Below are positions 2,860 through 21,449 of a stretch of DNA of 28,394 nt, piece by piece (the stretch's first letter is position 1; each line of letters opens with the position of its first letter). Under the pieces are notes generated by a model. It was not told where the DNA came from. It worked only from the letters and a program-made list of their open reading frames with translations, and made no database searches. The translations under genes and the position numbers were made by a program. Location of the stretch: the IMG/VR virus record IMGVR_UViG_3300027983_000612, positions 1 through 28,394 of that record; one strand, given 5' to 3'. Origin of the DNA: a virus.

Positions 2860-2872
2860 CAGCATGTAAAAA
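2851..2872 (-). terminator. AT-rich hairpin after the 455-aa gene (weak)
   Basis: The arms TTTTTACA (2865-2872) and TGTAAAAA (2851-2858) form an 8-bp stem with a 6-nt loop, just downstream of the 455-aa gene's stop codon at 2887. The stem is weak and no U-tract follows, so it may only be a symmetrical part of the promoter region whose -35 it overlaps. Confidence 0.3.
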
Positions 2873-2886
2873 TTATAGGATAGTGT

Positions 2887-4254
2887 TTACCCGAAGCTAA
2901 ATGCCAATTTTCCACCTATGCGAGATGAGTAATAGCTTTTACCCCCATCTACTAGGATATGTCCTTCAAAATTTGGTGGGTAAACTGCACGGAAGTCTTT
3001 AAGAACAGCATCGTCGCCCTTCTTAACCATTGATGTGTATATTTGAATAATTGATGATTGATTTAATAATGCGATAGCACCTGTAGCAAATTCTGGATTC
3101 TTGTTAATTGCTTTAGCTACTGTCTTTGCCACTGCGGCCATGATAGCATATCCTGTGTTAAATCCTTTAACCTCATTATTAACTTTAAAGTTTCCTAATA
3201 ATGCTCGGGCAGTTGGACTAACACCTTCAAAATCTCGCTTGCCTGTGTTTATGTAGTTGTCAATTTCGGCACCTAATGTTTCATCAACTCCAGGTATCTG
3301 TAACATTTTACCTAGTGTGATAGGACCAGCTTTAGCTGTTTGTTCTGCTATTACTTTGACCACAGTAATACAATATTTCGCTGTTTCAATTAAATCAGTA
3401 TTTCCTTCTTTTTCTGCTTTTAGATAAGCGTCATGTAAGTTCTTAGCTGATGCCTTGGCACCCGCGCCACCTTTTGAACTGATGCCGATTTCTTGACCAT
3501 TTGGAGCAATCAAGAAACTGTCGCACAAGGCCGCGTTCATGCTCATTGGCCACATCATCTTGCACTGCGACCATTCTGCTCCACCAGCTAATACTTTTCT
3601 TGCTTCTTCTGCTTGCCCTAAGATAACTCCACCTTCCAATGCGACGGGTTGCATGATCTCACCAAAGTAGTCACGTAAGGCTTCCATATGATCAGCCATG
3701 CCCTTGAACACAGTCCTTGGTTGTCCTGTCGCCAGCCCATATAATATATCTGTTAAGACTGGAGCAACTTCGGGAGGGGCGTTCTTGCCCACAGTATCAA
3801 TTACCTGGGCGGCAGTCATGAATACATTTTCAGTTTTAATTAGGTTCTGTGGATCATATCCCACTTGCATTTTAATAGCACCTTTGGTTGCTAAACTCCA
3901 TCCTGTAGGTATGTCTTTGTTTGACCATACGCTCATCATGTCGTGTTTGGTCTTTTGTAGGTATCTGCCCCATAGTATAACACCACCATCCATGTTATCT
4001 AACACCGCTACGGCAAATGCTAGACTGCCTGCGTTGGGAGAATTAGTCCACACAATCTTACCGTGCATGTCTTGTTCGTACTGTGCGAGTGTTTCGTCTC
4101 GTTGTTCTGGATTGTCAAATTGTGCAGTATTGGGTTCTGGATAGGAATCAACTCGAATAAATTCTGCTTCTTGGCCGGTAGCATTAACGAACTTGTCACC
4201 TGCCAGGCGACCAAAAATTCCCTTTGCTTCTAGTAATATATGTTGTAGTCTCAT
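2887..4254 (-). CDS. Unknown 455-aa late protein with capsid-targeting-like N-terminus
   Basis: I do not recognise a family with certainty. The N-terminus MRLQHILLEAKGIFGRLAG resembles the T4 capsid-targeting sequence MKTYQEFIAEA in layout: a short basic-hydrophobic peptide ending in L-L-E|A, a possible prohead-protease site. The middle has DSFLIAPNGQEIGISSKGG (about residues 245-263), loosely reminiscent of a PD-(D/E)xK core strand, but the acidic residue before xK is replaced by Ser, so a nuclease role is only a guess. The C-terminal half is helical and Ala-rich. No signal peptide or membrane segment is visible. It has its own late motif 7 nt before the ATG and no Shine-Dalgarno, so it is probably made late with almost no leader. 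It sits between the cytidylyltransferase and the sugar cassette. Confidence 0.7.
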   Translation of the reverse strand: MRLQHILLEAKGIFGRLAGDKFVNATGQEAEFIRVDSYPEPNTAQFDNPEQRDETLAQYEQDMHGKIVWTNSPNAGSLAFAVAVLDNMDGGVILWGRYLQKTKHDMMSVWSNKDIPTGWSLATKGAIKMQVGYDPQNLIKTENVFMTAAQVIDTVGKNAPPEVAPVLTDILYGLATGQPRTVFKGMADHMEALRDYFGEIMQPVALEGGVILGQAEEARKVLAGGAEWSQCKMMWPMSMNAALCDSFLIAPNGQEIGISSKGGAGAKASAKNLHDAYLKAEKEGNTDLIETAKYCITVVKVIAEQTAKAGPITLGKMLQIPGVDETLGAEIDNYINTGKRDFEGVSPTARALLGNFKVNNEVKGFNTGYAIMAAVAKTVAKAINKNPEFATGAIALLNQSSIIQIYTSMVKKGDDAVLKDFRAVYPPNFEGHILVDGGKSYYSSRIGGKLAFSFG

Positions 4255-4261
4255 GATAGTG

Positions 4262-4268
4262 TATTTAT
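4262..4268 (-). promoter_or_regulatory. Late promoter of the 455-aa gene
   Basis: GATAAATAC on the minus strand (core 4262-4268). Only 7 nt separate the motif from the ATG at 4254, and no Shine-Dalgarno is present. With a T4-like start site the mRNA would have a leader of about 2 nt. Confidence 0.65.
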
Positions 4269-4270
4269 CG

Positions 4271-4699
4271 TTAGTTGGACTTCCACTTGTCTAGTAACCA
4301 TGAGCTTGAATTACTCTTAGTGGTTCCGCCAACACCAAACACAAATGTAACATCGGGTTCTGACAGTTCAGGAATATTATCTCTTGTGCGATCTCCACCA
4401 TTGGCTACAATGATCTGACCTGCAGGATACAGTAATTTGACATTTTGTATGGCACGTATGGCACTGTCATCAGAGTCATCAAACAACACGCAATGATCTA
4501 CCATTCTTAAATTTTCTAATATTGCTACTCGATCAATGCTAGGCATAAAAGCACGCCCTTTTTTACGGACAAGCCAAGCATCTGAGTTTACACCAACTAC
4601 TAATATGTCACCTAATTTACGGGCGGCCAACAAGTATTCTATATGTCCGCGGTGTAGAGGATCAAATCCTCCTGTTACTAGAACAACCTTGTTGGTCAT
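4271..4699 (-). CDS. Cytidylyltransferase-like protein (HldE-C/TagD family)
   Basis: This 142-aa protein matches the small nucleotidyltransferase fold. The N-terminus is VVLVTGGFDPLHRGHIEYL with the catalytic HxGH (H16, H19). NSDAWLVRKKGRAFM and the arginine-containing DRVAIL follow. The C-terminal TKSNSSS (127-133) corresponds to the (S/T)-rich nucleotide-binding motif. The family includes the ADP-heptose synthase C-domain, glycerol-3-phosphate and choline-phosphate cytidylyltransferases. The expected reaction is NTP plus phosphorylated sugar or alcohol to NDP conjugate plus pyrophosphate. Its ATG overlaps the stop of the methyltransferase as ATGA, so translation is coupled to the recombination operon upstream. 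The substrate is not determined. Proximity to the sugar cassette suggests a glycan precursor. Confidence 0.8.
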   Translation of the reverse strand: MTNKVVLVTGGFDPLHRGHIEYLLAARKLGDILVVGVNSDAWLVRKKGRAFMPSIDRVAILENLRMVDHCVLFDDSDDSAIRAIQNVKLLYPAGQIIVANGGDRTRDNIPELSEPDVTFVFGVGGTTKSNSSSWLLDKWKSN

Positions 4700-5610
4700 T
4701 TTGTAAAGCTCTGACCTTTAGGTGCTCGCATGATGCCAACAGGAGTAAGTAACTTCGTTGATTTAGTGTGCTTTGGTGGTTGTGCTACTTTCTTTGTTTT
4801 TGATTTAACCGTTTGATTAACTTTTCCGGTTATAGTTGGCTCTCCGGCACTTTCAGGTATTTGTGTAGCTGGCATAACCCAATCAATATAATAGTTTTCT
4901 CGATCTAACCAGTTCACAACAATTTCTTCTTGTTTTGGGTATCCATATCTATTAATACTGTTAACTATACTATCGTGTAATAATCCTTTTTCTGCTAGGT
5001 CATACCAACTGGTAGTCTTAGGATCCATTGGTTCTATATCTGATTTATATACAGCAATCTTTATCCATGGGTCTTGCCATGTTTTATTTAAATAAAAATC
5101 CCTACAATCAAATCCATTTACAGCTAGCATATAAATTAAACTGGTTGGGGTGTGATTATAATAACACCCACTGTGGGTATCAGCATAGTATTTGTTATTG
5201 TGTACACCGTTAGATTGTGGCACGTGTAATACCAACATTCCATTGACTGTCATTTGCTCGTTCCAAAAACGCAAAGTTTCCAATGGATTGATACTGTATT
5301 GTAAGCTGTCATGTGCCCACATTAGATCAATGCTTACTGGAATTATTCTTTTTTCAGTAAAGTCTCTATTAATCTTGTATATATTTGTAAGGTCAGGAAC
5401 CTTATTCAATCTATTAATATCTTTATCAACTGCATAGCATTTATAATTGTATGGTATTGGGGTGTCATCTTTGCTTTCTAAGGTAGCCCACCATGTCATG
5501 TCGCTACCATCACCACAGCCCATGTCACAGACTGTTTTAAGACTTTCTAAAAAAGTATCATAGCCGTATATTAACTTGAGTGTCGCCCAACTATCGTGAT
5601 AATTAGCCAA
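4696..5610 (-). CDS. Class I SAM-dependent methyltransferase
   Basis: This is a 304-aa Rossmann methyltransferase. Motif I VCDMGCGDGSD is at about residues 27-37, AVDKD carries the acidic motif II position, and LMWAHDSLQYS plus a post-motif strand (NGMLVLHVPQ) follow. The last 50-60 residues form a Lys/Pro/Thr-rich tail that looks disordered and could bind nucleic acid. No target-specific motif such as DPPY is visible, so small-molecule, sugar or protein methylation is as likely as DNA methylation. The start is TTG at 5608-5610, chosen because GGAGG (5620-5624) lies upstream and no suitable ATG exists before motif I. It overlaps the uvsY-like gene by 8 nt and the cytidylyltransferase by 4 nt. 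Confidence 0.75.
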   Translation of the reverse strand: MANYHDSWATLKLIYGYDTFLESLKTVCDMGCGDGSDMTWWATLESKDDTPIPYNYKCYAVDKDINRLNKVPDLTNIYKINRDFTEKRIIPVSIDLMWAHDSLQYSINPLETLRFWNEQMTVNGMLVLHVPQSNGVHNNKYYADTHSGCYYNHTPTSLIYMLAVNGFDCRDFYLNKTWQDPWIKIAVYKSDIEPMDPKTTSWYDLAEKGLLHDSIVNSINRYGYPKQEEIVVNWLDRENYYIDWVMPATQIPESAGEPTITGKVNQTVKSKTKKVAQPPKHTKSTKLLTPVGIMRAPKGQSFTK

Positions 5611-7482: not shown

Positions 7483-8487
7483 TTAAGATGTTTTCTGTCG
7501 ATTGCGAATCATCGCTAGAATGTCTTCTGCACGCTGTCCACCGCTAGCTGGTGTTTCGATCGGTGCTGTAGGAGCTAGTACTGCTTCGGCTACAGGAGCC
7601 ACTACAGTTTCAGCTACAGGGGCCACTACTGCTGGTGCTGGTGTTGCCGCAACTTCTGCAGACGCATTTGGTGTTGCTGTCGCAGGAGCATTAAACTGGC
7701 CTCTTGGCTTGTAGTAATTACCCCAACGTTCTGCATCATATGCTTGCCCATCTACTGATGCTTCAAACATTTCTTTCATTACTTTTTGTTCAACTTCGCT
7801 TGGTCTCTTAGGAAGAAAGTCAGCTAGGTTGTGAAGACCAAATTGTTCGATAGCCGCTGAATCTGCCGCGTCTAGTGCTGATTCTTTACGTGACCATTTT
7901 GAAGTAGAATAATCAGCATAACCGCCTTTTGATGTTTTAGTAACAATAAAGTCTAAACCACCTTGATAGTCTGTTGGTAAGTTTTCTAGTTCTGGATCTA
8001 ACAAAGCTGATTTAATTAAGTTAAAGATTTGTGGACTAATGATAAATCTACGGATTGGATTTTCCGGTGTTTTGTCGTCCGTGATTGGATTTTCTTTAAC
8101 AAAGCCTTGGAATAGATATGATTTCTTTTTCCAATACTTACGGCCCATGTCTTCCAATGATGGATCTTTAAACCATGTTCTTACTTCTGCCAAGATTGGG
8201 CATGATTCTCCCCACATTTCAATACACGGTATTTGTACAGTTACAGGTCTACTGTCGCCTTGCCCTTTGATGCCGGCAAAAGCTAAGTTGATCATGTTTC
8301 TCTCAACCCAAAAGAATGTGTTATCTTTGTTTGCGTCAGGTAGAAACCTTATTCTTGCTGTTTGACCTTCTTGGATGTTCCAGTGTGCGTAGATAGCGTT
8401 ATCGCCACCACCTTGTGAATTGCCGCCTGTACCGCGATTTTCTGTTGCTTGTAACTTTGCTCTAATTTCGGCTAATGATGTTGCCAT
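7483..8487 (-). CDS. 32: gp32, single-stranded DNA-binding protein
   Basis: This 334-aa protein matches T4-type gp32. It has a short basic N-terminal region (LAEIRAKLQ), then an OB-fold with WNIQEGQTARIRFLPD, FFWVERNMI and VQIPCIEMWGESCPI. Two Cys of this last block probably belong to the zinc site, although the full His-Cys3 set of T4 is not obvious. RKYWKKKSYLFQGFV and RRFIISPQIFNLI follow. After residue 250 comes an Ala/Pro/Val-rich linker of low complexity. The last 20 residues (RAEDILAMIRNRQKTS) are not acidic, unlike the T4 C-terminal tail. A good Shine-Dalgarno (AGGAGAA, 8493-8499) precedes the ATG. It is the first gene of the recombination operon, transcribed from a sigma70-type promoter. 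Confidence 0.93.
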   Translation of the reverse strand: MATSLAEIRAKLQATENRGTGGNSQGGGDNAIYAHWNIQEGQTARIRFLPDANKDNTFFWVERNMINLAFAGIKGQGDSRPVTVQIPCIEMWGESCPILAEVRTWFKDPSLEDMGRKYWKKKSYLFQGFVKENPITDDKTPENPIRRFIISPQIFNLIKSALLDPELENLPTDYQGGLDFIVTKTSKGGYADYSTSKWSRKESALDAADSAAIEQFGLHNLADFLPKRPSEVEQKVMKEMFEASVDGQAYDAERWGNYYKPRGQFNAPATATPNASAEVAATPAPAVVAPVAETVVAPVAEAVLAPTAPIETPASGGQRAEDILAMIRNRQKTS

Positions 8488-8665: not shown

Positions 8666-11497
8666 CTAGTTAATTCCCGATAATCTCTTAAGTGATGTCA
8701 TTTCTTGTACACTTTCGTTTGCCTTTTTAAGTGCATCTGCTACTTGAGGCTGGTCAGACAATCCATCTTCGATTGATTCAATCCTGTCAACAGCATCTGT
8801 CATGTTACCTGTTGAACTGTTTGCTATTTTAATTGCGGCGTTGACGTCATCTTGTGTGTATTTTTCTGCTTCATCTAGTTTAGCGTTACAATTACAGTGC
8901 GGGCAATCTGGTGGGCAGCCACAATCTTCTGCTTTTACATCACTACCACAGCATTTATCTGAACAGTGTGTGTCACTAGCTTCTTCTACTTTTACTTTTG
9001 CTTTTTTAATTGAAACGCCACCTTTATAAGCCATTTCATATTCTTTTTGCATTGCTACAGCTTCTTCTTTACTGGCAAAAGAATCAATTTCTTCGCCGTT
9101 CCACCATAATTGATATTCTGTTTCGTTTGTTGATTCTTCCATTGCGTCATATGATTTTGCTGGTAAGCCTTTCTTATGTACTGCTCCACGCCCATGTAAA
9201 TCTAATACGTCTTTCAGCATGTCAAGATATCTTGTGAGTGTGCTAGGTTTTTCATCTTCACTGGTTAAATCAGTAAAGTGTGATACCGTAGTCTGTCCAT
9301 TATCCATATCAACTACTAAGGCGTTGCTATGAGTAGTAGACACTTGATCCACTGTACCTGTTTGTCCTTTATTCTTAACATATACTCGCTGTCCTACTAG
9401 TTTTTCTAATTTTTCGTGTGCTTCGTATACTGGTTTCTCTTCGTGCATTTTCATTTTGCCGATGTATGCTGGTTTGTTTGGGTCTTTTGCTAGTCCTGGT
9501 GTTTTAACTTCTTGCCAATCTGATTTTTTAGATTTCCAATTTTTTTCAAACTCTTCGTCTGATGCATTTTCCAAATCATAATGTAGTTCTTTCATTCTGC
9601 CTTCTTTTACTTCCATTCCACTTAGGCGTTTGAGTCTTTCTAAATTGTCAGGGGTTGAATGTTGTTTAACAATATTATCAACCCAAGCACTTACATCACT
9701 GGAACCAATCTCTTGTAGATCACTCCAATCTTCGCTGTCAACGTAATCCTGGATAGCGGCCATTGTTTCTCGAGGACCACCTACTTTGATAACTAGATCT
9801 AGATTGCCTTGAAAACGTCGAAGGATAGCATCGTATACTGCATCAGCCTGATCGTCATTATCACCTAAATTGATGTCAGCTTCATAGTCCATAGCATCTT
9901 GATCTGCTTGTGCATCGTAGTCATCATCTGTTGCTTCATCTAACTCAATATTATCTTTTGGCGGGCCGTATGTTTCGATCTCTTTTTCTGTAGCAATAAA
10001 ATAAGATGGGCTTTTGCAATTTGGACATACTACTTCTGCTTCACCTTCAGGTAATCCATCTGTTGGATTTTCTGGATCTGCAATCTCAGCATACATATGA
10101 CTTAGATTATGGCAGTTCATACAATACTGTGGCTCATTGTTTTTAAATATCTCTAATCCATCTTTTGCACCAACATGTACTGAATAATCATCATCTGTAG
10201 CTTCATCCATTTGTACAAATCCTGATTTACCTTTCAATTGGTCCATGATTTCTGGCATGTTGTCATCAACCCATTGTACAATCAGGCCTCTAGTGTCTGC
10301 TTCTGGATCTATATCTCCTAGATCGCCAATGTTGTCCCATAGCACATCGTCACCAATGAGGTCACCTAACGCACCAGTAGCATTAGCACCATCTACGCCT
10401 GCTGGCAATGGTTTTTTAAGTAATTCGTTAAGTTTTGCAATGTTTTCTTCTGTTTCTGGGATCGCCCAAGTACCTTCTGATACTCTTTGTGCCCAGGATT
10501 CAAATTGTTGTGCAAACGGGTTGTTGTTTTCTCTCATGATCGTGTGTGCCTTATGTACGAGTGGTAGTGCTTGTTCAATGCGCTCGTCAAGTGTTTTCTT
10601 GACAAACAATTCTTTTAGATCTGCTATATCCGCTTCATCTTCTACCAGAGCAGGTGTATAGTTCTCTTTAAATTCTGTGTAGCCACGCTTGCCCTTCATT
10701 TTCTTTAGGGTATTTTTAAGCAGGCCGTGATATCCAAACGCTGATTCTACCATCTCTAGAGTGACAGTGTCCTCAAATGTTCTGCGTGACATCCCGCGGA
10801 CGAAAGGGCGTAATGTCATCATTTCTCCAACCATTTCAGTTATATGCTGGCCTAACTCATCAGTGGGAATGCCACCAGCCGAAACATGTCGTGCCATGGC
10901 ACGTGCACCTGTTAGGTTATTGAACGGAAGTTTAAATCTTTCGCCTTCTACATTTTCGATGAACACCGAGTCGATGTTGCGGCTACGGGAGCCATGGACT
11001 TCATCGACGATGGGTTTGCTATGCTGTAATTTGATGCGCACTGGACCAAAGCTCTCATAGCTACGGTTCTTTGTGCCGTACATTTTGCCTTCGGATACAA
11101 CATCGTCTGCGCTGTAGGTGTTGTCAGCCTTGCTCTGTTGCTGGATGTCTCGATGTTTTAGCGTGCTTCGTGTTATGTCGCGTGGTTCAAAGCTCAATAG
11201 ATTTCTACGGGCAAACTCGCGAAGCTCTCTTAAAAACGTGTACCAGTCTTTTTTATGGTCTTCGTCAAGGTCGTCACTGATATTTTTACTAAAATATATC
11301 TTTAGGCTAGTTTCATCAATGAGACTCATTGTGATGTTGCCGTGGTTGTGTCCGTCTACTGTGTAATCAAAGTTAAAAAATCGTGCATCTTCGGGGTTTT
11401 GTGTGGCTTTAGCGTTTTCGTCACCAAGACTTACTTCCTCAAATCTATCACGGATTTTTTCAAACAGTCCTTCTGCAATTTTGTTAATTTCTCTCAT
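8666..11497 (-). CDS. Large acidic virion protein with Cys clusters (943 aa)
   Basis: I recognise this as a large conserved protein of marine T4-like phages, usually called virion structural, without known function. The N-terminal 300 residues look folded (for example KMYGTKNRSYESFGPVRIKL, then FKLPFNNLTGARAMARHVS). The rest is acidic and modular. DEATDDDY occurs twice. A zinc-ribbon-like CMNC...CPNC pair lies at about 457-492. A Cys-rich cluster (CSDKCCGSD, CGCPPDCPHCNC) lies at about 842-870. LKRLSG occurs twice, once at the extreme C-terminus. The start MREINKIAEG resembles a capsid-targeting peptide with an IAE|G site. A late motif ends exactly 5 nt before the ATG and overlaps the terminase stop region. 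It is probably an internal or core head protein. The role is inferred. Confidence 0.75.
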   Translation of the reverse strand: MREINKIAEGLFEKIRDRFEEVSLGDENAKATQNPEDARFFNFDYTVDGHNHGNITMSLIDETSLKIYFSKNISDDLDEDHKKDWYTFLRELREFARRNLLSFEPRDITRSTLKHRDIQQQSKADNTYSADDVVSEGKMYGTKNRSYESFGPVRIKLQHSKPIVDEVHGSRSRNIDSVFIENVEGERFKLPFNNLTGARAMARHVSAGGIPTDELGQHITEMVGEMMTLRPFVRGMSRRTFEDTVTLEMVESAFGYHGLLKNTLKKMKGKRGYTEFKENYTPALVEDEADIADLKELFVKKTLDERIEQALPLVHKAHTIMRENNNPFAQQFESWAQRVSEGTWAIPETEENIAKLNELLKKPLPAGVDGANATGALGDLIGDDVLWDNIGDLGDIDPEADTRGLIVQWVDDNMPEIMDQLKGKSGFVQMDEATDDDYSVHVGAKDGLEIFKNNEPQYCMNCHNLSHMYAEIADPENPTDGLPEGEAEVVCPNCKSPSYFIATEKEIETYGPPKDNIELDEATDDDYDAQADQDAMDYEADINLGDNDDQADAVYDAILRRFQGNLDLVIKVGGPRETMAAIQDYVDSEDWSDLQEIGSSDVSAWVDNIVKQHSTPDNLERLKRLSGMEVKEGRMKELHYDLENASDEEFEKNWKSKKSDWQEVKTPGLAKDPNKPAYIGKMKMHEEKPVYEAHEKLEKLVGQRVYVKNKGQTGTVDQVSTTHSNALVVDMDNGQTTVSHFTDLTSEDEKPSTLTRYLDMLKDVLDLHGRGAVHKKGLPAKSYDAMEESTNETEYQLWWNGEEIDSFASKEEAVAMQKEYEMAYKGGVSIKKAKVKVEEASDTHCSDKCCGSDVKAEDCGCPPDCPHCNCNAKLDEAEKYTQDDVNAAIKIANSSTGNMTDAVDRIESIEDGLSDQPQVADALKKANESVQEMTSLKRLSGIN

Positions 11498-11502
11498 AAT
11501 AG

Positions 11503-11509
11503 TATTTAT
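11503..11509 (-). promoter_or_regulatory. Late promoter of the 943-aa gene
   Basis: GATAAATACTATT lies between the terminase stop (11510) and the ATG at 11497. The motif ends 5 nt before the ATG and no Shine-Dalgarno exists, which places a T4-like transcription start on the A of the ATG. Confidence 0.75.
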
Positions 11510-13078
11510 CTACAACATTATAAATGGCATGGGTTCTACAAAATCGTCATGACCATCTTTCATCGCGTTGTCTAAATTAGCGTCATACGTTTGTAACAGC
11601 ATGGCCATTCGCACTATCAACACGAGGCTCATTACCAAGTCATCAGTTTCGCCGGGTTTGGCCGCAAATCCGCTACCGCTGGCCACAAACGTTTTAAGTT
11701 CTGATATTAGCGGCTTGCTGTTTATGGTCATGCGTTTGCTTTCAATCAGGCTCTTAAGTTTAGCACAAGCGGTAATTTTTGGTTTGTTTGATGTGTTAAA
11801 TCCTTTTCGATACCTGCGAGTATTCCCTGCCCTGGCGGGTTCGCTCAGGAACGTGCCTTTTATGTTCTCTTCGCCGATTTCTGACACACTAATTAACGCG
11901 GCTTCACCCAAAGTATTATTTTCTAAGCTATAATAGATGCTGTTCACTGGCACGGTCTCTGCTAGGTATTTTGTGATCTCTAACAATATACCTATCTGTT
12001 GTTGCACTGGTGTTCTATTGTCTCGCCATTCTGCAACTTGTACGAAGCTAGGAACTTCAAAGACCTGTATGGCGCTAGGATCGCCCCCTGTGCCAAGGCT
12101 CGGGTCTAATGCAACCAAATACGTTTGTGTGGGATCTGGACGCTTGTACCACCGTACCTGTCCTTGCCTTTCAGTTGGATCTTTTCCATCTAACTCAATT
12201 AAGTAACCAGGATTAATTAATGTTTCATCCCAGATGATAAATTCACAATCCATTTCTCTACGGAATCGTTCATCACCTAATTGTGCTCGAGTCTCTATAG
12301 CCCATGCTTCATCACGATCTGGATGCTCGTTCCAATAACTGCGGAATGCTTTAAACCCATTGATGCCTAATTCTGTTTCGTTACCACTTGCATCAAAGCA
12401 CTTGTTGGCACCTTTCCACAATGTGGCAAATTGGTCTTCATCACTGTTAGGAGTTGATGTAATAATACACTTACCGCCAGTTGCTAATGTAGGTGATATT
12501 GACGTCCAAAACTCACGGCCTATGGTAGGGCGGACAAACGCAAACTCATCTGCGTACAGTAGCGATATACTCATACCCCGTCCAGTGTTTTCAGTTGTTG
12601 TAGCACTTACTATACGACTGCCGTTGTCAAAGTCTATACTACCTTTGTTGTAACTAACTGCACCAGCACGTATGAAGTCTGGAACTGACTCATATGTGTA
12701 TCGTATACGTTGCATGATCTCTTGCGAGCCTGTATATTTGTGTGCGGCGATTAGGATAGTTGAGTCAGGGACAAACATAGCGTACCATAGCAAGTAGCCC
12801 GCGGCTGAAGTGGACTTCCCTGTTTGTCTGGGCATTAAGGATATGCTGAATCTGTAATTGTGGTATGAGTGTATCAATCGCTTTTGGTATTCAAAAGGTT
12901 TATACAACATTCGTCCTTTGGTAGGGTGCTGTATATAAAAGTAATTACTCATGAAATATTCAGGACCTGTTACAGGATTTGCACATTTAGCAAACTCTTG
13001 TAATTGTTTTTCCGTAAAGGATTCCCTCTGATGAGGTTTTTTTACTAATACGGAATCTGTACCTCTAGCTGTAGCCAT
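11510..13078 (-). CDS. 17: gp17, terminase large subunit
   Basis: This 522-aa packaging ATPase-nuclease has Walker A MPRQTGKS at 82-89, Walker B LLYADE at 173-178 with E178 catalytic, and coupling motif TSTPN at 207-211. In the RNase-H-like nuclease domain are LVALDPSLG (D325), YYSLENNTLG (Glu position) and the C-terminal GETDDLVMS (Asp). These fit the T4 gp17 Asp-Glu-Asp triad. It pumps DNA into the prohead and makes the headful cut, with gp16. The open frame reaches up to 13144, but that extension lies inside the homing endonuclease gene. ATG 13078 gives MATARG and lies 5 nt after a late-like TTAAATA, so I use it. Confidence 0.95.
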   Translation of the reverse strand: MATARGTDSVLVKKPHQRESFTEKQLQEFAKCANPVTGPEYFMSNYFYIQHPTKGRMLYKPFEYQKRLIHSYHNYRFSISLMPRQTGKSTSAAGYLLWYAMFVPDSTILIAAHKYTGSQEIMQRIRYTYESVPDFIRAGAVSYNKGSIDFDNGSRIVSATTTENTGRGMSISLLYADEFAFVRPTIGREFWTSISPTLATGGKCIITSTPNSDEDQFATLWKGANKCFDASGNETELGINGFKAFRSYWNEHPDRDEAWAIETRAQLGDERFRREMDCEFIIWDETLINPGYLIELDGKDPTERQGQVRWYKRPDPTQTYLVALDPSLGTGGDPSAIQVFEVPSFVQVAEWRDNRTPVQQQIGILLEITKYLAETVPVNSIYYSLENNTLGEAALISVSEIGEENIKGTFLSEPARAGNTRRYRKGFNTSNKPKITACAKLKSLIESKRMTINSKPLISELKTFVASGSGFAAKPGETDDLVMSLVLIVRMAMLLQTYDANLDNAMKDGHDDFVEPMPFIML

Positions 13079-13082
13079 AGTA

Positions 13083-13811
13083 TTATTTAACCATCTGTTT
13101 CTTATTTGAGTAGTATCTGAGTAGTGATTGTCTTTGTTTTGCAATATGTTCAGGTGATTTAATTCTACCTTTTAATGCTGTTGATTTTTTTAATTTCGTT
13201 TCTACACTATCAGGCCCTTTCTTTTTTCCTAAATTAGCCAATCTTAATTTCTCTTTTGTTTCTTTAGAATGAGGATTACCTTTCCTTCCAAGTTGTCTTA
13301 AAGATTGTTTTATACGTTGTTCTTCTGTGCGTTTTTTTCCTATATTTTTACCTTTCATAGATTCAGATAGTTTTCTTTTAGATTCTTCACTCATTGGTTT
13401 TCTTTTCTTACCCATATGAGCTAAAGATAATTTAATTTTAGTTTCTTTTGAGTGCTTTCTGCCAGGTTTACCTTTGAGTGATTTTGATCTTAAAGTAGCA
13501 TATTTGATACGCAAAGATTCATATATTTTTGATGTTATTTTATATCTTTGTTGATTATTGTTTTCTAAAGTTGCCATAGCCCAGGCGGCATATACCATTT
13601 TCTTTTTAGCATTACCTTCGTACATTTTTGTAAGGAGAAGATGACAAATAAAATGCTCTCTGGCTGTTAAATTGACAAGATTTTCTTTAAGATTACTACC
13701 GCCTAATGATTTAGGAACAATATGATGAGTTTCATAATACCCATCCGTCAGACGATTTTTAGCTTTGTTGATGATACTATTATAATAGGAAGTATATTTG
13801 TTTTCTAACAC
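13083..13811 (-). CDS. HNH homing endonuclease with NUMOD3 repeats
   Basis: This 242-aa protein has an HNH domain at 25-60 (YYETHHIVPKSLGG, then NLVNLTAREHFICH, with H29/H30, N47 and H53/H57 as candidate catalytic or metal residues). Five or six NUMOD3-like DNA-binding repeats follow from about residue 115, each with the pattern G(K/R)K....(S/T)xE(T/E)xxK(L/I)(S/R). This is the free-standing homing endonuclease type common in T4-like phages. It cuts related genomes lacking it, usually in or near a conserved gene, here presumably the terminase. It is strongly Lys-rich. Start is GTG at 13809-13811, 5 nt after GATAAATA. An ATG two bases upstream hits a stop at once. The frame is intact. Confidence 0.88.
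   Translation of the reverse strand: MLENKYTSYYNSIINKAKNRLTDGYYETHHIVPKSLGGSNLKENLVNLTAREHFICHLLLTKMYEGNAKKKMVYAAWAMATLENNNQQRYKITSKIYESLRIKYATLRSKSLKGKPGRKHSKETKIKLSLAHMGKKRKPMSEESKRKLSESMKGKNIGKKRTEEQRIKQSLRQLGRKGNPHSKETKEKLRLANLGKKKGPDSVETKLKKSTALKGRIKSPEHIAKQRQSLLRYYSNKKQMVK
13084..13090 (-). promoter_or_regulatory. Late-like motif at the terminase start
   Basis: TTAAATA ends 5 nt before the terminase ATG and is formed by the last codons (GTT AAA TAA) of the homing endonuclease gene. It is one base off the TATAAATA consensus. No Shine-Dalgarno is present. It is weaker than the motif upstream of the homing gene. Confidence 0.5.
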
Positions 13812-13816
13812 ATAGT

Positions 13817-13823
13817 TATTTAT
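13817..13823 (-). promoter_or_regulatory. Late promoter upstream of the homing endonuclease
   Basis: GATAAATAACTAT, core 13817-13823, ends 5 nt before the GTG start. The sequence GATAAATAACTATG itself contains an ATG and looks like a former terminase promoter/start now separated from the terminase by the inserted gene. Confidence 0.65.
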
Positions 13824-13852
13824 CTGTTAGCAAAGGTTTTAATAAGTTTAAC

Positions 13853-14161
13853 TTACCAAGGAGTCTCTCCGCCCATAAATTTTGGCAAGGAAAACCAAAG
13901 TCTAAACCATTCAGGAGTGCCAGGTTTGATGTCGTTTTCTTGTTGATATTTTATTTTTTCGTTGGCGGTGATGCTAGGATTGCTACCTTCTGTGCTAACA
14001 CTATCAGGTCCTGTGTATTCCTGTAACGTTCCTATATTGTTATTGCCTAACCCAGCAAGGCGTTTGATCTCGTGTATCGGATCAGCGTCGTCTAGGACTG
14101 CATCATCAATTCCTTCGTTGGTGTAGTCTTGTGTGCGAACTACATATTGTTTAGACGCCAT
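13853..14161 (-). CDS. Small virion-type protein (102 aa)
   Basis: Function unknown. The protein contains IHEIKRLAGLGNNN in its first half, one of several R-L-(A/S)-G motifs in this gene block, and ends with the aromatic-rich PGTPEWFRLWFSLPKFMGG, which I associate with conserved small proteins of marine T4-like phages. It overlaps the end of the 128-aa gene by 11 nt. Ser/Gly/Asn-rich and probably partly disordered in the middle. Context suggests a head or core component. Confidence 0.65.
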   Translation of the reverse strand: MASKQYVVRTQDYTNEGIDDAVLDDADPIHEIKRLAGLGNNNIGTLQEYTGPDSVSTEGSNPSITANEKIKYQQENDIKPGTPEWFRLWFSLPKFMGGETPW

Positions 14162-14537
14162 ATTTATTTTTCCTCTTAGCAGGCATTGGGCTCTGCTTGT
14201 TAGTATTACTTAGTTCTTCACTGCGATTAGATGATAATCTTTTAACCTTGCCAGCACCTACCATCTTGGCGGCACTGTTAATGATCTCTAATTCTTGATC
14301 AGTGTAACATGATAACAAAGGGTCACCTGCAATTGCGCCTGCGGCTTTTGTAGGGAAGTCTGGAGCTCCGGCCATAGCTAATCCAAAGCGGTAAGCTGTG
14401 TATGGACTGCCATTGGGATGATTTATACTAATGCCAGGCAGGCTAATAGCACTTCTGATACTAGCTTGTTGGTCTGCTTCTAAATTTGAAAAATCGGCTC
14501 GTTTATTGTCTTCAACAATAACTTCCTTAATTTTCAT
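14151..14537 (-). CDS. Small virion-type protein (128 aa), capsid-targeting-like N-terminus
   Basis: Function unknown. The start is ATG 14537, one base after the stop codon of the 951-aa gene (GTC TAA G ATG). The longer frame would begin at a TTG within that gene and is unlikely. The N-terminus MKIKEVIVED has the layout of T4 capsid-targeting peptides (M-K..., hydrophobic, x-E). The central part has HPNGSPYTAYRFGLAMAG, then AGDPLLSCYTDQELEIINSAAKM and KVKRLSSNRSEELS. A protein with SPYTAYRFG and a KRLS-type motif seems common beside large virion proteins in marine T4-like phages, from memory. The C-terminus is basic (KRKNKYG). Confidence 0.68.
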   Translation of the reverse strand: MKIKEVIVEDNKRADFSNLEADQQASIRSAISLPGISINHPNGSPYTAYRFGLAMAGAPDFPTKAAGAIAGDPLLSCYTDQELEIINSAAKMVGAGKVKRLSSNRSEELSNTNKQSPMPAKRKNKYGV

Positions 14538-14538
14538 C

Positions 14539-17394
14539 TTAGACTTTTTTAACTTCGTCAACCATGCTTTCGTATGCTGACCATAGATCTTCTTCTATAG
14601 GGTTAGCACCACGATTAGCGGCTAACGGATATTGTTTTTTAGGTCCACCAAGTCCACCGCCAGCGGCTGATGTTACAGCACTTACTGGCGCTGTTTCTTC
14701 ATGTGGAGTGTTAGTGTATTCAATATCGCGTTCTTCTTCTACTTGTTCACACCCGCATGGTTCACACCCACAAATGTCACAAGTTTCTGTACTGCCTACT
14801 GGGCTTAAATCGTCCTCTTCACCTACTGGTATAGCAACACCAGTAACTTCTGGCATGCCAGATAGTTTACGAAGTAAATTAAGTGCATCTTGTTCTCCAT
14901 TAGCAGTAATGCTGACATTGATATCTTCGTTCATATTTTTCTCCTGTGCTGTGTCACCAGACACTGAGTATGTTTTACCATCAACAGTAAATGAATCTTT
15001 ACCTGCTTTAATAGCATCTAGTCTTGCTTTAGTAAACTCGTTGCCTTCTTCTACAGTATCTTCCTGAGCCATTTTTTTATGGTCTTTGCCGCAAGCTTCT
15101 GCAACTTGTTCTTCATTTAGTCCAACTGCTGATAAAAATCTTGCTCTATCAAAGCGTGGATTTTGTTTAGCAAACATGTCTGCGTGATGGTTAGCAAGTT
15201 CTACTTTCTTAGTTTCATCTTCGATGTTTTTAAGTAAGTCAGCTACCATTTGGAAATCTTTACGTGTAGGGCCTTCTTCTAAATGTGTTTCTTCGTCCAT
15301 TGGTACATCAACATCACGTTCTTGCCAAGCTTCAGTGGCATCTTCGTGTGCGGCTTCCATTGCGGCATCATGTTCACTGCCGCCTGGTGCAACCATTTCA
15401 GCACACCATTCGTCAGTTAGTTTGTTGTTGCCATCACCCTTACAGTGTGCTCGAAGTGATAGTGGATCAATGACTGGTTGACCGTCTACTACGTTTGCTT
15501 GATAGCTAATACTACCATAGCCTGGTTCACCGTCATCACCTGTAAATTCCCAATCCATTTCACCGCTAAGTGATTCTGGGTCAAATCCTTCGTTTACATC
15601 ACACTCACATGTTTCGCAACCACACGATTCACATGTTCCTGTTTCATCTTTTCCTGTCCAATCGTTCCAAAGTCCTTTAACTTCATTGCCACCAACTGTA
15701 ACTTTTTCTGCTAGTCCCGCTAGTTTGGCGATCTCAGTTAACTCATCATTGATGTCAACAACTACTTCATTTTCTTGTTCTGATAATTCTTTTTGGTAGT
15801 GATCCCATGCTTCTTCGTTGGTGTAGATAGGATGATTACGTAATTCATTGGATTCTTTTACTACTAATTTTTCAGCATTATTTAATTCTGCTTTAGAATT
15901 TTCAATGGTATCACCAAACTCAATACTTTCGTCAACTTCATCTTTTTCTTTATCGTCTTGGTAATTTCTATCATGCTTAATACCTTGTTTGGTCTTTGTG
16001 ACTTTATGTCCTTTTGATGTGATATAGTAATCACCGGTTTTAGCAACATCGTCAAATTCAGTCTTATTTTTAAGTTCCTTGCCTTCTTCAACTTGGCGGA
16101 TACCTTCTAAGATGCTGTTACTTTTGGTATTTTCTTGCATAATATCATTTCCTAAATGTTCTTCTGATTGTCGAGGCATTTCACCCGGATCGGCTTTGGT
16201 TGTTGGTTCTAGTTGAAACTTGTTTTTTTCAATGTCACGTGTACGTTGTTTAAATATTGGGCTTTTCTTAACAAAGTTTGGAAACATTGCAATATATTTT
16301 TTTACTTTTGGGGAACCTAATAGTTCAATTACATTATCTAGGTTAGACATTACCTCTTCAATGCGTTGCACTTTACGTTCTTGATTTTGGTCGCTACCTA
16401 ATTCCGCTAATAGCCCATACATCTGATAGTCATATAAAGTAATATTTTTGTTTTGTGCAAACTGTAAATTGAGTCGAGCTTGTCCGGACTTAAATTTTGC
16501 TAACATATCATTATAATTATAGATGCCCAACATAGGGTCACCCTCTTTATATTCTCTTAACATGTTAAATAAATTCTTACTTTCATTTTGCCCAACTGCT
16601 ATATCTATTGGAGCCTGCGTAGTAGGATCGTAATTGGCATCATTTGCGGCTTGTTGTTTTTTAGCTCTTGCTTGTCTTGCTTGTGCCATTTGATCTACTG
16701 GTTCTGTGCCATCAATGTTTGTAGTAGCCACAGGAGTACCAATGGTTGCTTTCTTGCCAGTAACTTTTTTATATGTCTTTGCCTTAGTTCTTCCTTGTGC
16801 TTGTGCAGGAGCTTGTGCTTGTGCAGGAGCTTGTGCTGGAGCTTGTGCTTGTGCAGGAACTTCTGCTGGTGCTGTGCCAGGCATCTGTACTACATTGATT
16901 GATGATGCTTTGGGTTCTGGAGATTGTGCCGCTGGTGCTGGAGTTTTAGGTTCCGGCTCGTCATTGGCCGCTTTGGTTGTGATTTTAGCAGACAATGCAT
17001 CTATTTCTTTTTCTTGCTTGTCATTAACGGCCGTTGTTTTTTCTAACTCTGCTGTTGTTTTTTCAAGCTCTTTATTTGTTTTAACCATCTGATAAGCTAA
17101 TGCTTCTGCATCACTCTGTGCGGCAGGTCTTTCAAGCCTTGCTTTATTTACTAACTTAACAACATCAGGCTCACCTCTGGATAAATCTATATCATCGGGT
17201 GTGTCTCTCACTGGATTTTTAGCTTTTTTTCTTGTTGCTTCTTTAAAAGATTGATATTTTTCTGTCAGGACGGTAACTGATGCATCAATGTCACCTTGAG
17301 GGTCTACACTTTCATATATTGTTTCAGACACAGGTTCTGGACTAGGTGTTACCCTGTCAAGTTTTCCTAATATGTCATATATGTTATTACTCAT
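14539..17394 (-). CDS. Large acidic virion protein with low-complexity and Cys motifs (951 aa)
   Basis: No enzyme domain is recognised. The parts in order are a Lys-rich N-terminus, a coiled coil at about 110-145 (ELEKTTAELEKTT repeats), a Pro/Ala/Gln segment at about 178-200, a helical region (NLFNMLREYKEGDPMLGIYN to about 370), and then a long acidic modular tail. The tail holds two near-identical Cys motifs, CESCGCETCECD (about 585) and CDICGCEPCGCE (about 870), EIAKLAGLAEK and LLRKLSGMPEV, and many (I/L)xEG or VEEG sites. The composition suggests a core, scaffold or internal head protein processed by the prohead protease. It is preceded by AAGGGC, 10 nt after the 201-aa gene. No late motif is seen close to its start, so it is probably co-transcribed. 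Confidence 0.72.
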   Translation of the reverse strand: MSNNIYDILGKLDRVTPSPEPVSETIYESVDPQGDIDASVTVLTEKYQSFKEATRKKAKNPVRDTPDDIDLSRGEPDVVKLVNKARLERPAAQSDAEALAYQMVKTNKELEKTTAELEKTTAVNDKQEKEIDALSAKITTKAANDEPEPKTPAPAAQSPEPKASSINVVQMPGTAPAEVPAQAQAPAQAPAQAQAPAQAQGRTKAKTYKKVTGKKATIGTPVATTNIDGTEPVDQMAQARQARAKKQQAANDANYDPTTQAPIDIAVGQNESKNLFNMLREYKEGDPMLGIYNYNDMLAKFKSGQARLNLQFAQNKNITLYDYQMYGLLAELGSDQNQERKVQRIEEVMSNLDNVIELLGSPKVKKYIAMFPNFVKKSPIFKQRTRDIEKNKFQLEPTTKADPGEMPRQSEEHLGNDIMQENTKSNSILEGIRQVEEGKELKNKTEFDDVAKTGDYYITSKGHKVTKTKQGIKHDRNYQDDKEKDEVDESIEFGDTIENSKAELNNAEKLVVKESNELRNHPIYTNEEAWDHYQKELSEQENEVVVDINDELTEIAKLAGLAEKVTVGGNEVKGLWNDWTGKDETGTCESCGCETCECDVNEGFDPESLSGEMDWEFTGDDGEPGYGSISYQANVVDGQPVIDPLSLRAHCKGDGNNKLTDEWCAEMVAPGGSEHDAAMEAAHEDATEAWQERDVDVPMDEETHLEEGPTRKDFQMVADLLKNIEDETKKVELANHHADMFAKQNPRFDRARFLSAVGLNEEQVAEACGKDHKKMAQEDTVEEGNEFTKARLDAIKAGKDSFTVDGKTYSVSGDTAQEKNMNEDINVSITANGEQDALNLLRKLSGMPEVTGVAIPVGEEDDLSPVGSTETCDICGCEPCGCEQVEEERDIEYTNTPHEETAPVSAVTSAAGGGLGGPKKQYPLAANRGANPIEEDLWSAYESMVDEVKKV
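16793..16858. repeat. In-frame tandem repeats coding Pro/Ala/Gln segment
   Basis: Variants of an 18-bp unit (plus strand gcttgtgcttgtgcagga) and a 12-bp subunit are repeated about four times. They encode the APAQAQAPAQAP-type linker in the 951-aa protein. The lengths keep the frame, so slippage would change linker length only. Confidence 0.75.
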
Positions 17395-17403: not shown

Positions 17404-18009
17404 TTATGCTTTTGGTATTTTATTTTGCTTGCTACCTACAGGGCTATCATTGCCTTGTGGTAACTCGTTAGTTGTTTTTCCGTCGTTGCCTTCTGGAATA
17501 TCATCACTACCTGCTATCTCAATCTTTGGTTGATTTAATTCTTTAAGGATGCTATCTGCATTAGCGTACTCTTTTCCAGCTTTAGTTGCATCTGGATTGT
17601 CTGCATAAGGCTTGTCTAGCACTGATTCACCTTTCTTATATTCGTGTAGTTCACTTTCACCACTTTCGTTCCAGCGCCAAATCTCTTCTGGATGGTTTTT
17701 TGGAACAACTTTAATGTTTGCTTTGGCAATATTAGCACGTTCAGCTACCACTGATCGAACTTGTTCGTCATTACACGGATATGTTAGAACAGCATCCATT
17801 AGATATAGTTCCACAGTACCATGATTAGGAAAATCAATATCTCCCTCTTTTAATGGTAGACGTTTTGGTTTGCTAAGGCTTTCTAAGCCGTATGTGTTCA
17901 GTGCGTTCTCTAACTTATCCATTTTATCTGTCGGATCGTCGTTTGCTATCTTGATACGAAACTCGTACGTATGTTGATTTTCAGCTAGATATTTTAAAAA
18001 TGTTTTCAT
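17404..18009 (-). CDS. Virion-type protein (201 aa) with capsid-targeting-like N-terminus
   Basis: Function unknown. The N-terminus MKTFLKYLAENQ aligns residue for residue in style with the T4 internal-protein targeting peptide MKTYQEFIAEA, including the (I/L)-A-E site. The next 100 residues look folded (HTYEFRIKIANDDP, GTVELYLMDAVLTYP, VVAERANIAKANIKVVPKN) with an alpha/beta pattern. The last 60 are polar and Gly/Asn/Asp-rich. A late motif lies 21 nt before the ATG with AGGAAAC as ribosome site. It is likely packaged in the head or part of the core. It sits between gp16 and the 951-aa protein. Confidence 0.7.
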   Translation of the reverse strand: MKTFLKYLAENQHTYEFRIKIANDDPTDKMDKLENALNTYGLESLSKPKRLPLKEGDIDFPNHGTVELYLMDAVLTYPCNDEQVRSVVAERANIAKANIKVVPKNHPEEIWRWNESGESELHEYKKGESVLDKPYADNPDATKAGKEYANADSILKELNQPKIEIAGSDDIPEGNDGKTTNELPQGNDSPVGSKQNKIPKA

Positions 18010-18572: not shown

Positions 18573-18579
18573 TATTTAC
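18573..18579 (-). promoter_or_regulatory. Late-like motif at gp16 start
   Basis: GGTAAATAC at the end of the gp4 gene, 8 nt before the gp16 ATG. It deviates at one base from NATAAATA. No Shine-Dalgarno is seen, so the expected leader would be very short (about 3 nt). Confidence 0.5.
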
Positions 18580-19007
18580 CGCTTCTGATTTTTGAATATG
18601 TCGTATTCGGTAACAACTCTAAATCGTATTCCGTTGGCTTTAGCCCAACTGTCGGCCGCGGCCCACTTGGCCATGTTCATAGCAACACTTAATTTGTCTC
18701 TATATGACTTAGCGGCTTCCATGGTTGTTTCGGTGCTTGGTTTTATTTCTATTAATTCAGAATGCTTGCGTTGATTTGCATCTACATAAATCACTAAAAA
18801 GTCTGGCACGTATACTGTATTTTTTCCACTGACTGGATTGAAGTAGGGTATCCTTATACCTTCGCTGGACCAATTTATTACAGCAGGATTGTTATCACAG
18901 AAGCTCATAAAAGTAAACTCCCAACTACTTCTATAAGTAGGAGTGCGTTTCCCCATGTACTTCTCTGGATTCTTTATTGTGTATTTTCCTGACGCATACT
19001 TAGCCAT
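18576..19007 (-). CDS. 4: gp4-like head completion protein
   Basis: This 143-aa protein is the size of T4 gp4 (150 aa). It has YRSSWEFTFMSFCDNNPAVINWSSEGIRIPY in its first half, shown here only by its conserved residues (the R-SSWE and W-SE parts). It then carries a PD-(D/E)xK nuclease-like core: PDF at about residue 71 and EIKP at about 90. T4 gp4 completes DNA-filled heads so that tails can join. The nuclease-like motif suggests trimming or sealing of DNA ends, which is inference from the fold. It lies directly after the 211-aa tail gene (6-bp gap) and its 3' end holds the gp16 late-like motif. Confidence 0.82.
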   Translation of the reverse strand: MAKYASGKYTIKNPEKYMGKRTPTYRSSWEFTFMSFCDNNPAVINWSSEGIRIPYFNPVSGKNTVYVPDFLVIYVDANQRKHSELIEIKPSTETTMEAAKSYRDKLSVAMNMAKWAAADSWAKANGIRFRVVTEYDIFKNQKR

Positions 19008-20831: not shown

Positions 20832-21449
20832 TTAACCAGTAATTGTAGTACCTAATGTTCTACCTACTAATGTACCAATACCTGTTTCAAGTGGTGTTTG
20901 GATAGCATTATCATAACGTATAGTCACTGCAACTGTCATTGGTTCATTAGTTGCATAGTTAGCATCTGCGTAATCAGTATTTGATAGATAGCAACCATAT
21001 AGTTCCCAAGTTTCAAGAACTGTTGCTTCATGCACGCCATTACCACCATCAAGCACTTCAAATCGTGTAAGGAATTTGTAATCAATTCCAGAACTTGCTG
21101 ATGCTTGTTCCATAAAGTCAAATTGTTTCTGTAGTTGTTCACCAACACGTTTAGTAACTTCGCCACCTGCGTCATCACGCAAGGTACAAACCACAGTTTC
21201 CCAAGTTGGTTTACCAGCTAGATAAACTTTACTGTTGTAAATTGGAATAATCATTTCTTCAAAACTTAGTTTTGGTCGAGTAAAGTCAATAACTTGTTTT
21301 GTTAATTCAGTTGACGGTTGACTAACCCCAAAATTCTCAAAAGTTACGCGAAAGCGGAACTTTAGTTTAGGCATCAACAAGCCTTGACTTGTTGCACTTT
21401 GGTTAGTACTTAACGGTACTGTAAATTTACTTAATGATGCTGTTGCCAT
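20832..21449 (-). CDS. 19: gp19, tail tube protein
   Basis: This 205-aa protein lies right after the sheath gene, as in T4. LMPKLKFRFRVTFENFG, IDFTRPKLSFEEMIIPIYNS (core PKLSFEE) and YLAGKPTWETVVCTLRDD are the conserved beta-rich tube blocks. VLETWELYGCYLSNTDYADANY is the later block. It polymerises into the inner tube through which DNA passes. It is somewhat longer than T4 gp19 (163 aa). An AAGGAC ribosome site and a duplicated 12-bp leader element precede it. A strong terminator follows, fitting a single high-level transcript. Confidence 0.92.
   Translation of the reverse strand: MATASLSKFTVPLSTNQSATSQGLLMPKLKFRFRVTFENFGVSQPSTELTKQVIDFTRPKLSFEEMIIPIYNSKVYLAGKPTWETVVCTLRDDAGGEVTKRVGEQLQKQFDFMEQASASSGIDYKFLTRFEVLDGGNGVHEATVLETWELYGCYLSNTDYADANYATNEPMTVAVTIRYDNAIQTPLETGIGTLVGRTLGTTITG

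Follow-up and report, generated by a model that had tools for sequence, protein, structure and literature searches.

Probable prohead-core cassette polyproteins in a fragment of a large-phage genome

Why do two giant proteins encoded on the IMG/VR virus record IMGVR_UViG_3300027983_000612, of which positions 1 to 28,394 form the 28,394-base window analysed here, contain so many potential prohead-protease sites? The preliminary description of this DNA, made from its letters, had noticed such sites in the two acidic proteins, of 943 and 951 residues (named p943 and p951), and proposed that both are core or internal proteins processed into several fragments on maturation, like polyproteins. Our analysis supports that description in substance. 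We consider it probable that both proteins are cassette polyproteins of the prohead core, which the head protease cuts in trans. Each chain would comprise an N-terminal carrier part followed by a string of small domains (cassettes) of about 35-170 residues, and many adjacent cassettes would be joined by (L/I/V/M)-x-E/(G/A/S), the presumed site of an S77 (gp21-type) prohead protease, where the slash marks the presumed cut between P1 and P1'.

Protease-type sites in p943 and p951

The presumed genes of the window all lie on the minus strand. Cut at the sites, the two chains divide into the following parts, with cassettes named after short sequence motifs.

8666..11497, minus strand: p943, candidate cassette polyprotein of 943 aa; phrog_13484 'virion structural protein', E 4.8e-14
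11090..11497, minus strand: p943 1-136, N-terminal folded domain, folded to about residue 108 in the model; ends VSE/G
10475..11089, minus strand: p943 137-341, middle folded domain, conserved in jumbo phages; ends VSE/G
10202..10474, minus strand: p943 342-432, helical cassette; ends MDE/A
9935..10201, minus strand: p943 433-521, CxxC...CxxC cassette, zinc-ribbon-like by eye; inner LPE/G, ends LDE/A
9602..9934, minus strand: p943 522-632, 'ILRRF' cassette with an RLSGM motif; ends VKE/G
9422..9601, minus strand: p943 633-692, 'KMKEL' cassette; ends VYE/A
9134..9421, minus strand: p943 693-788, weakly SH3/KOW-like cassette, sub-threshold Pfam MSSS, E 0.021; ends MEE/S
8981..9133, minus strand: p943 789-839, 'LWWNG' cassette; ends VEE/A
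8870..8980, minus strand: p943 840-876, Cys-rich cassette, judged from sequence; ends LDE/A
8669..8869, minus strand: p943 877-943, 'AIKIA' cassette; C-terminal LKRLSGIN, like the scaffold C-terminus
14539..17394, minus strand: p951, candidate cassette polyprotein of 951 aa
16105..17394, minus strand: p951 1-430, carrier part with a Pro/Ala/Gln-rich linker and a folded block at about 283-390; sites after 28 (IYE/S) and 430 (ILE/G)
15589..16104, minus strand: p951 431-602, short cassettes; sites after 437, 489, 514 and 602, an EIAKLAGL motif and CxxCGCxxCxC
15274..15588, minus strand: p951 603-707, 'GFDP' cassette, 608-692 folded in the model; also inside the L013 943-type protein
15046..15273, minus strand: p951 708-783, 'PTRKDF' cassette; phrog_19432, E 1.9e-5
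14542..15045, minus strand: p951 784-951, 'GNEF' cassette, LLRKLSGM mini-domain, Cys-rich stretch and C-terminal helix

The motif [LIVM]xE[AGS] occurs 12 times in p943 against 3.6 in shuffled sequences, a count reached by none of 2000 shuffles, and 9 times in p951 against 3.95 (p=0.017). Shuffling inside 30-residue blocks, which keeps the local composition, gave 12 vs 3.7 (p=0.001) and 9 vs 3.9 (p=0.015), respectively. The 24 other presumed genes of the window, pooled, hold 22 sites vs 18.4 (p=0.22), and a 201-aa neighbour of p951 holds 2 vs 0.7 (p=0.15). The tetrapeptides singled out in the preliminary description are present: LDE/A, reported twice in p943, follows residues 521 and 876, and in p951 ILE/G follows residue 430, VEE/G residues 437 and 783, and LEE/G residue 707. 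The shuffle test that it suggested places the density above expectation, clearly in p943 and marginally to moderately in p951; with its own form of the motif, (L/I/V)xE(A/G), p943 has 9 sites vs 2.2 (p=0.001) and p951 has 6 vs 2.7 (p=0.051). The excess thus stands, whereas the motif must be widened to admit V and M at P3 and S at P1', residues which the scaffold of the phage also uses.

Acidic composition alone might yield such motifs by chance, and the strict T4 form (L/I)xE(A/G) is indeed not significantly enriched in either protein (p943, 4 vs 1.5, p=0.07; p951, 2 vs 1.7, p=0.50), in addition to the borderline value of the narrower motif in p951. The strict counts alone would not have convinced us. 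Against chance stand the block shuffles, the 361 sites vs 128 shuffled over 52 modular relatives, and the boundary-coincidence and cutting tests given below, so that this explanation is hardly credible.

An S77 protease, and a scaffold that carries such sites, are found in the same lineage. On the 46-kb sister contig G001, where p951 is 99.9% identical to that of the window, the head genes stand in T4 order, namely the portal, an acidic 262-aa protein without family, an S77 prohead protease (PF03420, E 1.8e-29, G001:C1:12911-13354), the scaffold and a gp23-like capsid protein; the window, being a fragment, stops short of these genes. Of 59 phage records with homologues of the scaffold, several among the best 40 annotate theirs as scaffolding protein. 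The scaffold holds 13 sites where shuffling gives 2.7, and their P3 residues include L, I, V and M; the capsid protein starts with MTTQLLE/GRWNETKDALLE/G. The protease of the window phage would presumably share this widened specificity.

The AlphaFold models of p943 and p951, built from 13 and 15 sequences with mean pLDDT of 56.2 and 53.9, respectively, are a rough guide only. Sites fall below pLDDT 50 in 10/12 cases in p943 and 8/9 in p951, vs 98/198 glutamates. The placement of the sites in disordered stretches, as first described, is therefore broadly right for 18 of the 21, within the limits of weak models and apart from three sites in predicted helices. One of these belongs to the p943 N-terminus, MREINKIAE/G, which was considered as a capsid-targeting leader; this candidate was weakened by the predicted helix 4-16 that contains the site and by the family alignment, in which a site occupies that column in 5/17 members and is missing in 12/17. 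For modular proteins at large, a first site of the form [LIVMF]xE[AGSN] lies within 25 residues of the start in 23 of the 48 complete open reading frames (ORFs), vs 6.5 after shuffling the modular ORFs and 121/561 other ORFs.

Cassette boundaries in the modular relatives

IMG/VR was scanned with module alignments for related loci, two of the scans keeping the best 80 of 311 and the best 80 of 445 matches. The 205 loci analysed, some of which overlap, contain 3185 ORFs of at least 60 aa, and 169 of these match at least one of eight module profiles. From the 160 modular ORFs of at least 200 aa, 52 representatives were retained by dropping any ORF with more than half of its length covered by identical residues of a longer one. 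Because the 52 representatives still share cassettes and orthologues, z-scores over them are not independent-sample statistics. The site motif occurs 361 times in the representatives vs 129 in shuffled sequences, and two decoys are not above chance, the reversed motif (137 vs 128.5) and h.D[AGS] (85 vs 112, h being the hydrophobic position), while h.K[AGS] is mildly raised (212 vs 162).

The modules recur in new orders, also between 943-type and 951-type proteins, and tend to begin just after a site. In the 943-type protein of locus L013, the GFDP module of p951 stands mid-chain and its PTRKDF and GNEF modules stand at the end; the LWWNG cassette of p943 reappears in L017 with 75% identity over 61 residues in a different context. 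When the 52 representatives, p943 and p951 were cut at the sites, 214 pairs of pieces matched end to end, forming 32 clusters, vs 20-32 pairs and 16-20 clusters in eight replicates with shifted sites. After cutting, the 10 copies of PTRKDF have 10 different left neighbours, the 9 copies of AIKIA have 9, the 5 of KMKEL have 5 and the 16 of GNEF have 13. The N-terminal carrier pieces keep their neighbours, as seen for p943 137-251 with 6 copies and 2 left neighbours. New cassettes would be gained via recombination at the junctions. By eye, a 989-aa modular protein (L126:4576-7542) shows repeated spacers such as E/SVNE/A between its cassettes, along with inner copies of a leader that starts with Met, MKLTDMISVNE/A, as if leader-bearing genes had been fused in frame.

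Local alignments between the modular proteins place the sites at the cassette starts. An alignment starts at a site in both partners in 184/523 cases, vs 7.9 for shifted sites (sd 3.9, maximum 23, 200 runs), and both ends lie at sites in 16/349 vs 0.1. Two decoys show little of this at alignment starts (h.K[AGS], 5 vs 1.9; reversed motif, 1 vs 1.3). Alignment ends taken alone are weak, 34/406 vs 13.0 with a shifted maximum of 34, and the decoy h.E[KRDENQ], not an expected preferred site, is higher than the site motif there, so the site signal is assigned to the cassette starts. A plain proximity test, which counted ends within 3 or 6 residues of a site, was discarded; since alignments run a few residues past the site, it was replaced by a start-offset histogram and the two-sided test. 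In the histogram, the site motif reaches 36 in bin 3-5 and 41 in bin 6-8 vs 11.8 expected, and h.E[KRDENQ] reaches 19 and 12 in the same bins vs 9.2, with 27 in bin 0-2.

The junctions themselves were counted in the five families with sharp starts (PTRKDF, GNEF, KMKEL, GFDP and SH3), with F allowed at P3; ILRRF, AIKIA and LWWNG were left out and described from the best 45 rows per family. A site lies exactly at the junction in 98 of the 115 distinct upstream contexts (PTRKDF 25/26, GNEF 48/61, KMKEL 17/18, GFDP 5/7, SH3 3/3). Over the 115 contexts, P3 is V, L, M, I or F in 101, P1 is Glu in 109 and P1' is G, A or S in 107, while P2 is varied and often acidic (E 42, D 24). Such conservation, with a hydrophobic P3, a varied P2, Glu at P1 and a small P1', is the pattern of a protease site and not that of a folded element. 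The linker between the N-terminal and middle domains of the p943 family behaves likewise, with a site in 17/17 hand-picked members, six of them from closely related phages, in an otherwise unconserved linker; in L034, about 70 residues are inserted into this linker, again ending MNE/G.

The same boundaries could be read as flexible linkers at which the domains of uncut virion proteins recombine, with hxE(G/A/S) as the linker sequence and no protease acting on it. The behaviour of h.E[KRDENQ] suits this reading, as the decoy is raised both where alignments begin (24 vs 4.8) and where they end (39 vs 7.2, exceeding the 34 vs 13.0 of the site motif) and matched the site motif in the plain proximity test (1.7-2.1-fold vs 1.4-2.0-fold). 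Cleavage of p943, p951 or any relative has likewise not been observed, and no experiment showing it was found. What argues for a protease is that the constraint is specific to each position, that the boundary effect is slight or absent for the reversed and h.K decoys, and that the same motif fills the scaffold of the phage. We regard uncut proteins as improbable.

Besides the decoy and the lack of observed cleavage, several other results count against a cassette polyprotein cut by the head protease. The excess of sites sits in the C-terminal parts, with 3 vs 1.25 (p=0.12) in p943 1-341 and 1 vs 1.33 in p951 1-430. Three sites, after residues 9 and 251 of p943 and 766 of p951, lie in predicted helices; the few sites within predicted folded parts probably escape cutting. 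The 346 other long ORFs of the same loci, some of which are head proteins, show a milder excess of 679 vs 451 (1.51-fold), and h.E alone is raised in both modular ORFs (1.45-fold) and these controls (1.32-fold). Orthologous pieces supply part of the excess of end-to-end pairs. No site is present in 13/61 GNEF contexts; among the best 45 rows per family, ILRRF cassettes begin well inside a fragment, far after a site, and the spacing of AIKIA is variable. An S77 protease was found in only 7/21 contigs or records searched (1/6 and 6/15); most of these are fragments, yet two of 117 and 93 kb gave no S77 match. Finally, the detection in virions by others concerns jumbo-phage relatives of p943 and leaves p951 without virion evidence. 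With these points included, processing into several fragments in the manner of a polyprotein remains our preferred reading, favoured by the site excess, the cassette boundaries at sites and the S77 protease of the lineage.

Scaffold-like motif, virion relatives and possible cargo

The first 350 or so residues of p943 match the phrog_13484 virion structural proteins of jumbo phages (PA5oct, CBB, Munch), among the best 40 of 55 records. In the window, the p943 gene lies between the genes for the terminase large subunit and a single-strand DNA (ssDNA) binding protein. A p943-type gene directly follows the terminase gene here and in 8/9 isolates examined (Vibrio 2.275, Phosso, XaC1, CBB, 7t3, BF, slurp01 and Hallingskeid), and in five of these eight the gene that comes next on the strand bears an ssDNA-binding annotation; in PA5oct, the exception, the gene follows another structural gene. 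The proteins of 8/9 isolates have 426-496 aa and that of Phosso 976 aa, so a long tail of extra modules is seen in p943 of the window and, among the isolates, in Phosso. CBB_276 was detected in virions with 8 unique peptides and 21.7% coverage (PMC5259590), and phAPEC6 gp205c, a 48.5-kDa protein encoded next to an ssDNA-binding protein, with 2 peptides (PMC7247149); by its position, gp205c is probably the same gene as the p943 type. The PA5oct record QCG76087 carries the note ESI-MS/MS. The earlier assignment to core or internal proteins is in this way supported for the 943-aa family, and for the 951-aa protein only through shared cassettes and motifs.

A second short motif, named RLAG, connects the modular proteins with the scaffold. 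The pattern [LIVM]x[RK][LIM][AS]G[LIMV] turns up 21 times among the 52 modular ORFs vs 0.26 shuffled and 8 times in the 346 control ORFs vs 1.2. It forms the C-terminus of 7/9 jumbo-type scaffolds examined, those of the window lineage (IRRLAGLK), PA5oct, Phosso, Atu_ph07, Vibrio 2.275, G007 and G009; the remaining two have a near form (Serratia BF) and a degenerate form (121Q). It is absent from T4 gp22, and none was found among the protease-neighbouring ORFs of 150 aa or more in two Kyanoviridae records and in G008 and G010. Proteins of the p943 type end similarly, with LKRLSGIN in p943, MKKLAGLK in the L007 relative and LRKLAGI in Phosso, and p951 has two inner copies of the RLAG type. One copy is present in each member of a family of 67-108-aa proteins near the terminase; many loci have such a small protein there, the member of the window being encoded at 13853-14161. 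RLAG is a candidate docking signal for the capsid or core, suggested by these sequence comparisons. The chain would enter the prohead together with the scaffold, guided by R-L-(A/S)-G-(I/L/M), which is also the C-terminus of the gp22-like scaffold.

The shared C-terminus could also mean that p943 and p951 are themselves scaffold or core chains like T4 gp22, cut only so that the pieces can leave the head, the fragments having no function of their own. In T4, most of the pieces into which gp22, gp67 and gp68 are cleaved leave the head (PMC9026906, PMC5694885), and the extra sites in SPN3US propeptides are explained likewise (PMC5694885). However, p943 and p951 are not homologous to the scaffold by BLASTP against that of the sister contig (best E 0.15 and 0.37, respectively) and belong to different PHROGs, only the short RLAG motif being common to them. 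Some cassettes are moreover mobile as units with changing neighbours, and a few have relatives or domains that a pure scaffold would not need. A Zeta/AAA_33 P-loop kinase, above the cut-off, was found in one relative (L168, 1557-2657), soon after a leader-like start and a site. Sigma-70 region 4, also above the cut-off, was found in another (L117, 4002-5717), which starts with a cytidylyltransferase-like domain just below the cut-off. The PTRKDF cassette has a likely stand-alone relative in the 131-aa gp46 of mycobacteriophage Damien, found by profile and matched weakly by tblastn (E 0.06). These few cases favour cargo over mere scaffold, and we hold functionless core fragments to be a serious but rather unlikely alternative.

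For the cassette polyproteins that we prefer, maturation would then proceed by cutting of the junctions in trans, each chain releasing about 9-13 fragments. Some of these would probably remain with the DNA and might be ejected like the internal proteins of T4-like phages, and others may leave the head like T4 core peptides. We tentatively suggest, as a possibility short of our favoured conclusion on cleavage, a widespread cargo system of large phages in which cassettes, some of them host-takeover effectors, are strung together by recombination at protease sites, guided into the prohead by RLAG, cut in trans in the head and delivered to the host with the DNA.

Domain and fold searches give little further indication of what the cassettes are. 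Pfam yielded sub-threshold matches only for p943 and p951, one sub-threshold match only for ten large modular proteins, and 23 families at E<=0.01 for the 52 representatives, mostly as single weak matches. The PDB fold search returned no match at E<=0.001 for either model, and a list of acetyltransferase-like folds for p943 was not used (best E 0.09, TM to query 0.06). Solved structures searched with both profiles gave nothing at E<=0.01; tblastn of the whole p951 in annotated phages gave no match, and its C-terminal part weak matches only. In BFVD, p943 has 10 matches at E<=0.001, nine of which are unnamed or uncharacterised. The tenth, A0A6J5KX69 (Foldseek E 1.4e-29), is a structural neighbour named 'Large polyvalent protein-associated domain-containing protein'. 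This name recalls the polyvalent proteins (Iyer et al. 2017), effector strings with the same logic of fusion that are proposed to be cut by an embedded peptidase. No Pfam peptidase was found in p943, p951 or the 52 relatives, and LPD11 appears as one weak match in 1/52 (E 0.0074). Membership in the polyvalent proteins was rejected because no peptidase was found, and we consider it very unlikely.

Neighbouring genes, known systems and implications

The other features of the window are as follows, with UvsX and UvsY also among its presumed genes.

21547-24798, minus strand: tail sheath
20832-21449, minus strand: tail tube
18576-19007, minus strand: TnsA-like head-closure protein
17404..18009, minus strand: 201-aa head protein, phrog_14802 head and packaging, E 2e-4
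13853..14161, minus strand: 102-aa protein with EIKRLAGL, the same motif as the scaffold C-terminus; near-identical loci elsewhere
11510-13144, minus strand: terminase large subunit
7483-8487, minus strand: single-strand DNA binding protein
2887..4254, minus strand: 455-aa orphan protein, N-terminus MRLQHILLE/AKG

The N-terminus of the 201-aa protein, MKTFLKYLAE/N, is a candidate capsid-targeting leader. The 455-aa protein, for which no match was found in PHROGs, Pfam or annotated phages, is a possible further targeted protein, judging by its leader-like start. An ORF with a NUMOD3 motif of the homing-endonuclease type (13083-13811) overlaps the 5' end of the terminase ORF. In a relative (L043:802-3742), the terminase gene is broken at ...TGRGMSISMLY/C by what by eye resembles an atypically split intein, in which a 320-aa ORF separates a short N-half (CLDGDTTIRIRNKQ...DKIIR, stop) from a long C-half that ends ...FITKN/CDEFAF; the sister contig L002 (14251-14944) bears the same intein-like N-half at its end, and the terminase of the window is uninterrupted at this point. 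A nucleotide/sugar gene group occupies 268-5610, with a HAD-like hydrolase, a MobA-like NTP transferase, a cytidylyltransferase-like protein, a methyltransferase (below the Pfam cut-off) and a cysteine-dioxygenase-like protein.

Four known systems come closest. In T4, gp21 cleaves after L/I-x-E, gp22 is fragmented, as are other core proteins, and the first 10 residues of IPIII suffice for entry (PMC9026906, PMC5694885). The T4 core and internal proteins (gp22, gp67, gp68, IPI-III, Alt) are alike in the S77 protease, the L/I-x-E-type site and several cuts in one core protein, and we count their short N-terminal targeting leaders as a possible further likeness (PMC9026906). In contrast, each T4 internal protein has its own gene and a single leader, whereas here many domains are fused with sites at mobile junctions; V and M also occur at P3 here, and T4 gp22 is without the RLAG motif. 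SPN3US gp47, gp50, gp53 and gp54 and phiKZ gp93 are internal or head proteins with several prohead-protease motifs, and about 125 N-terminal residues are removed from gp50, gp53 and gp54 (PMC5694885, PMC10052503). SPN3US differs in that cuts occur at AxE and that in the passages cited all identified cuts, except autocleavage, remove N-terminal propeptides (PMC5694885, PMC10052503); these passages describe no exchangeable cassettes for SPN3US or phiKZ, and the likeness drawn here is one of description. The polyvalent proteins similarly fuse several small domains in one phage-delivered protein and have been likened to RNA-virus polyproteins (PMC5512222). An embedded metallopeptidase is proposed to free their domains, whereas the likely cutter here is a separate head protease. 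The phrog_13484 proteins (PA5oct QCG76087, CBB_276, Phosso XYS97569) resemble p943 in their N-terminal and middle domains, which are homologous, and have its linker site, and they differ in the cassette tail, which 8/9 isolate proteins lack and which ends LRKLAGI in Phosso. No paper on cassette chains joined by prohead-protease sites was found in the open-access literature, which is weak evidence of absence.

If the proposed reading is true, these phages would pack many small proteins by means of one chain and a protease that is already needed for head maturation, with RLAG as a concrete candidate docking signal common to scaffold and cargo. The idea could be tested on existing virion mass-spectrometry data, and it would provide an annotation rule for large 'hypothetical' phage proteins, which would be cut at hxE/(G/A/S) and annotated piece by piece. 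The chains would then represent a DNA-phage counterpart of the RNA-virus polyproteins, with the capsid-maturation protease as the processing enzyme.

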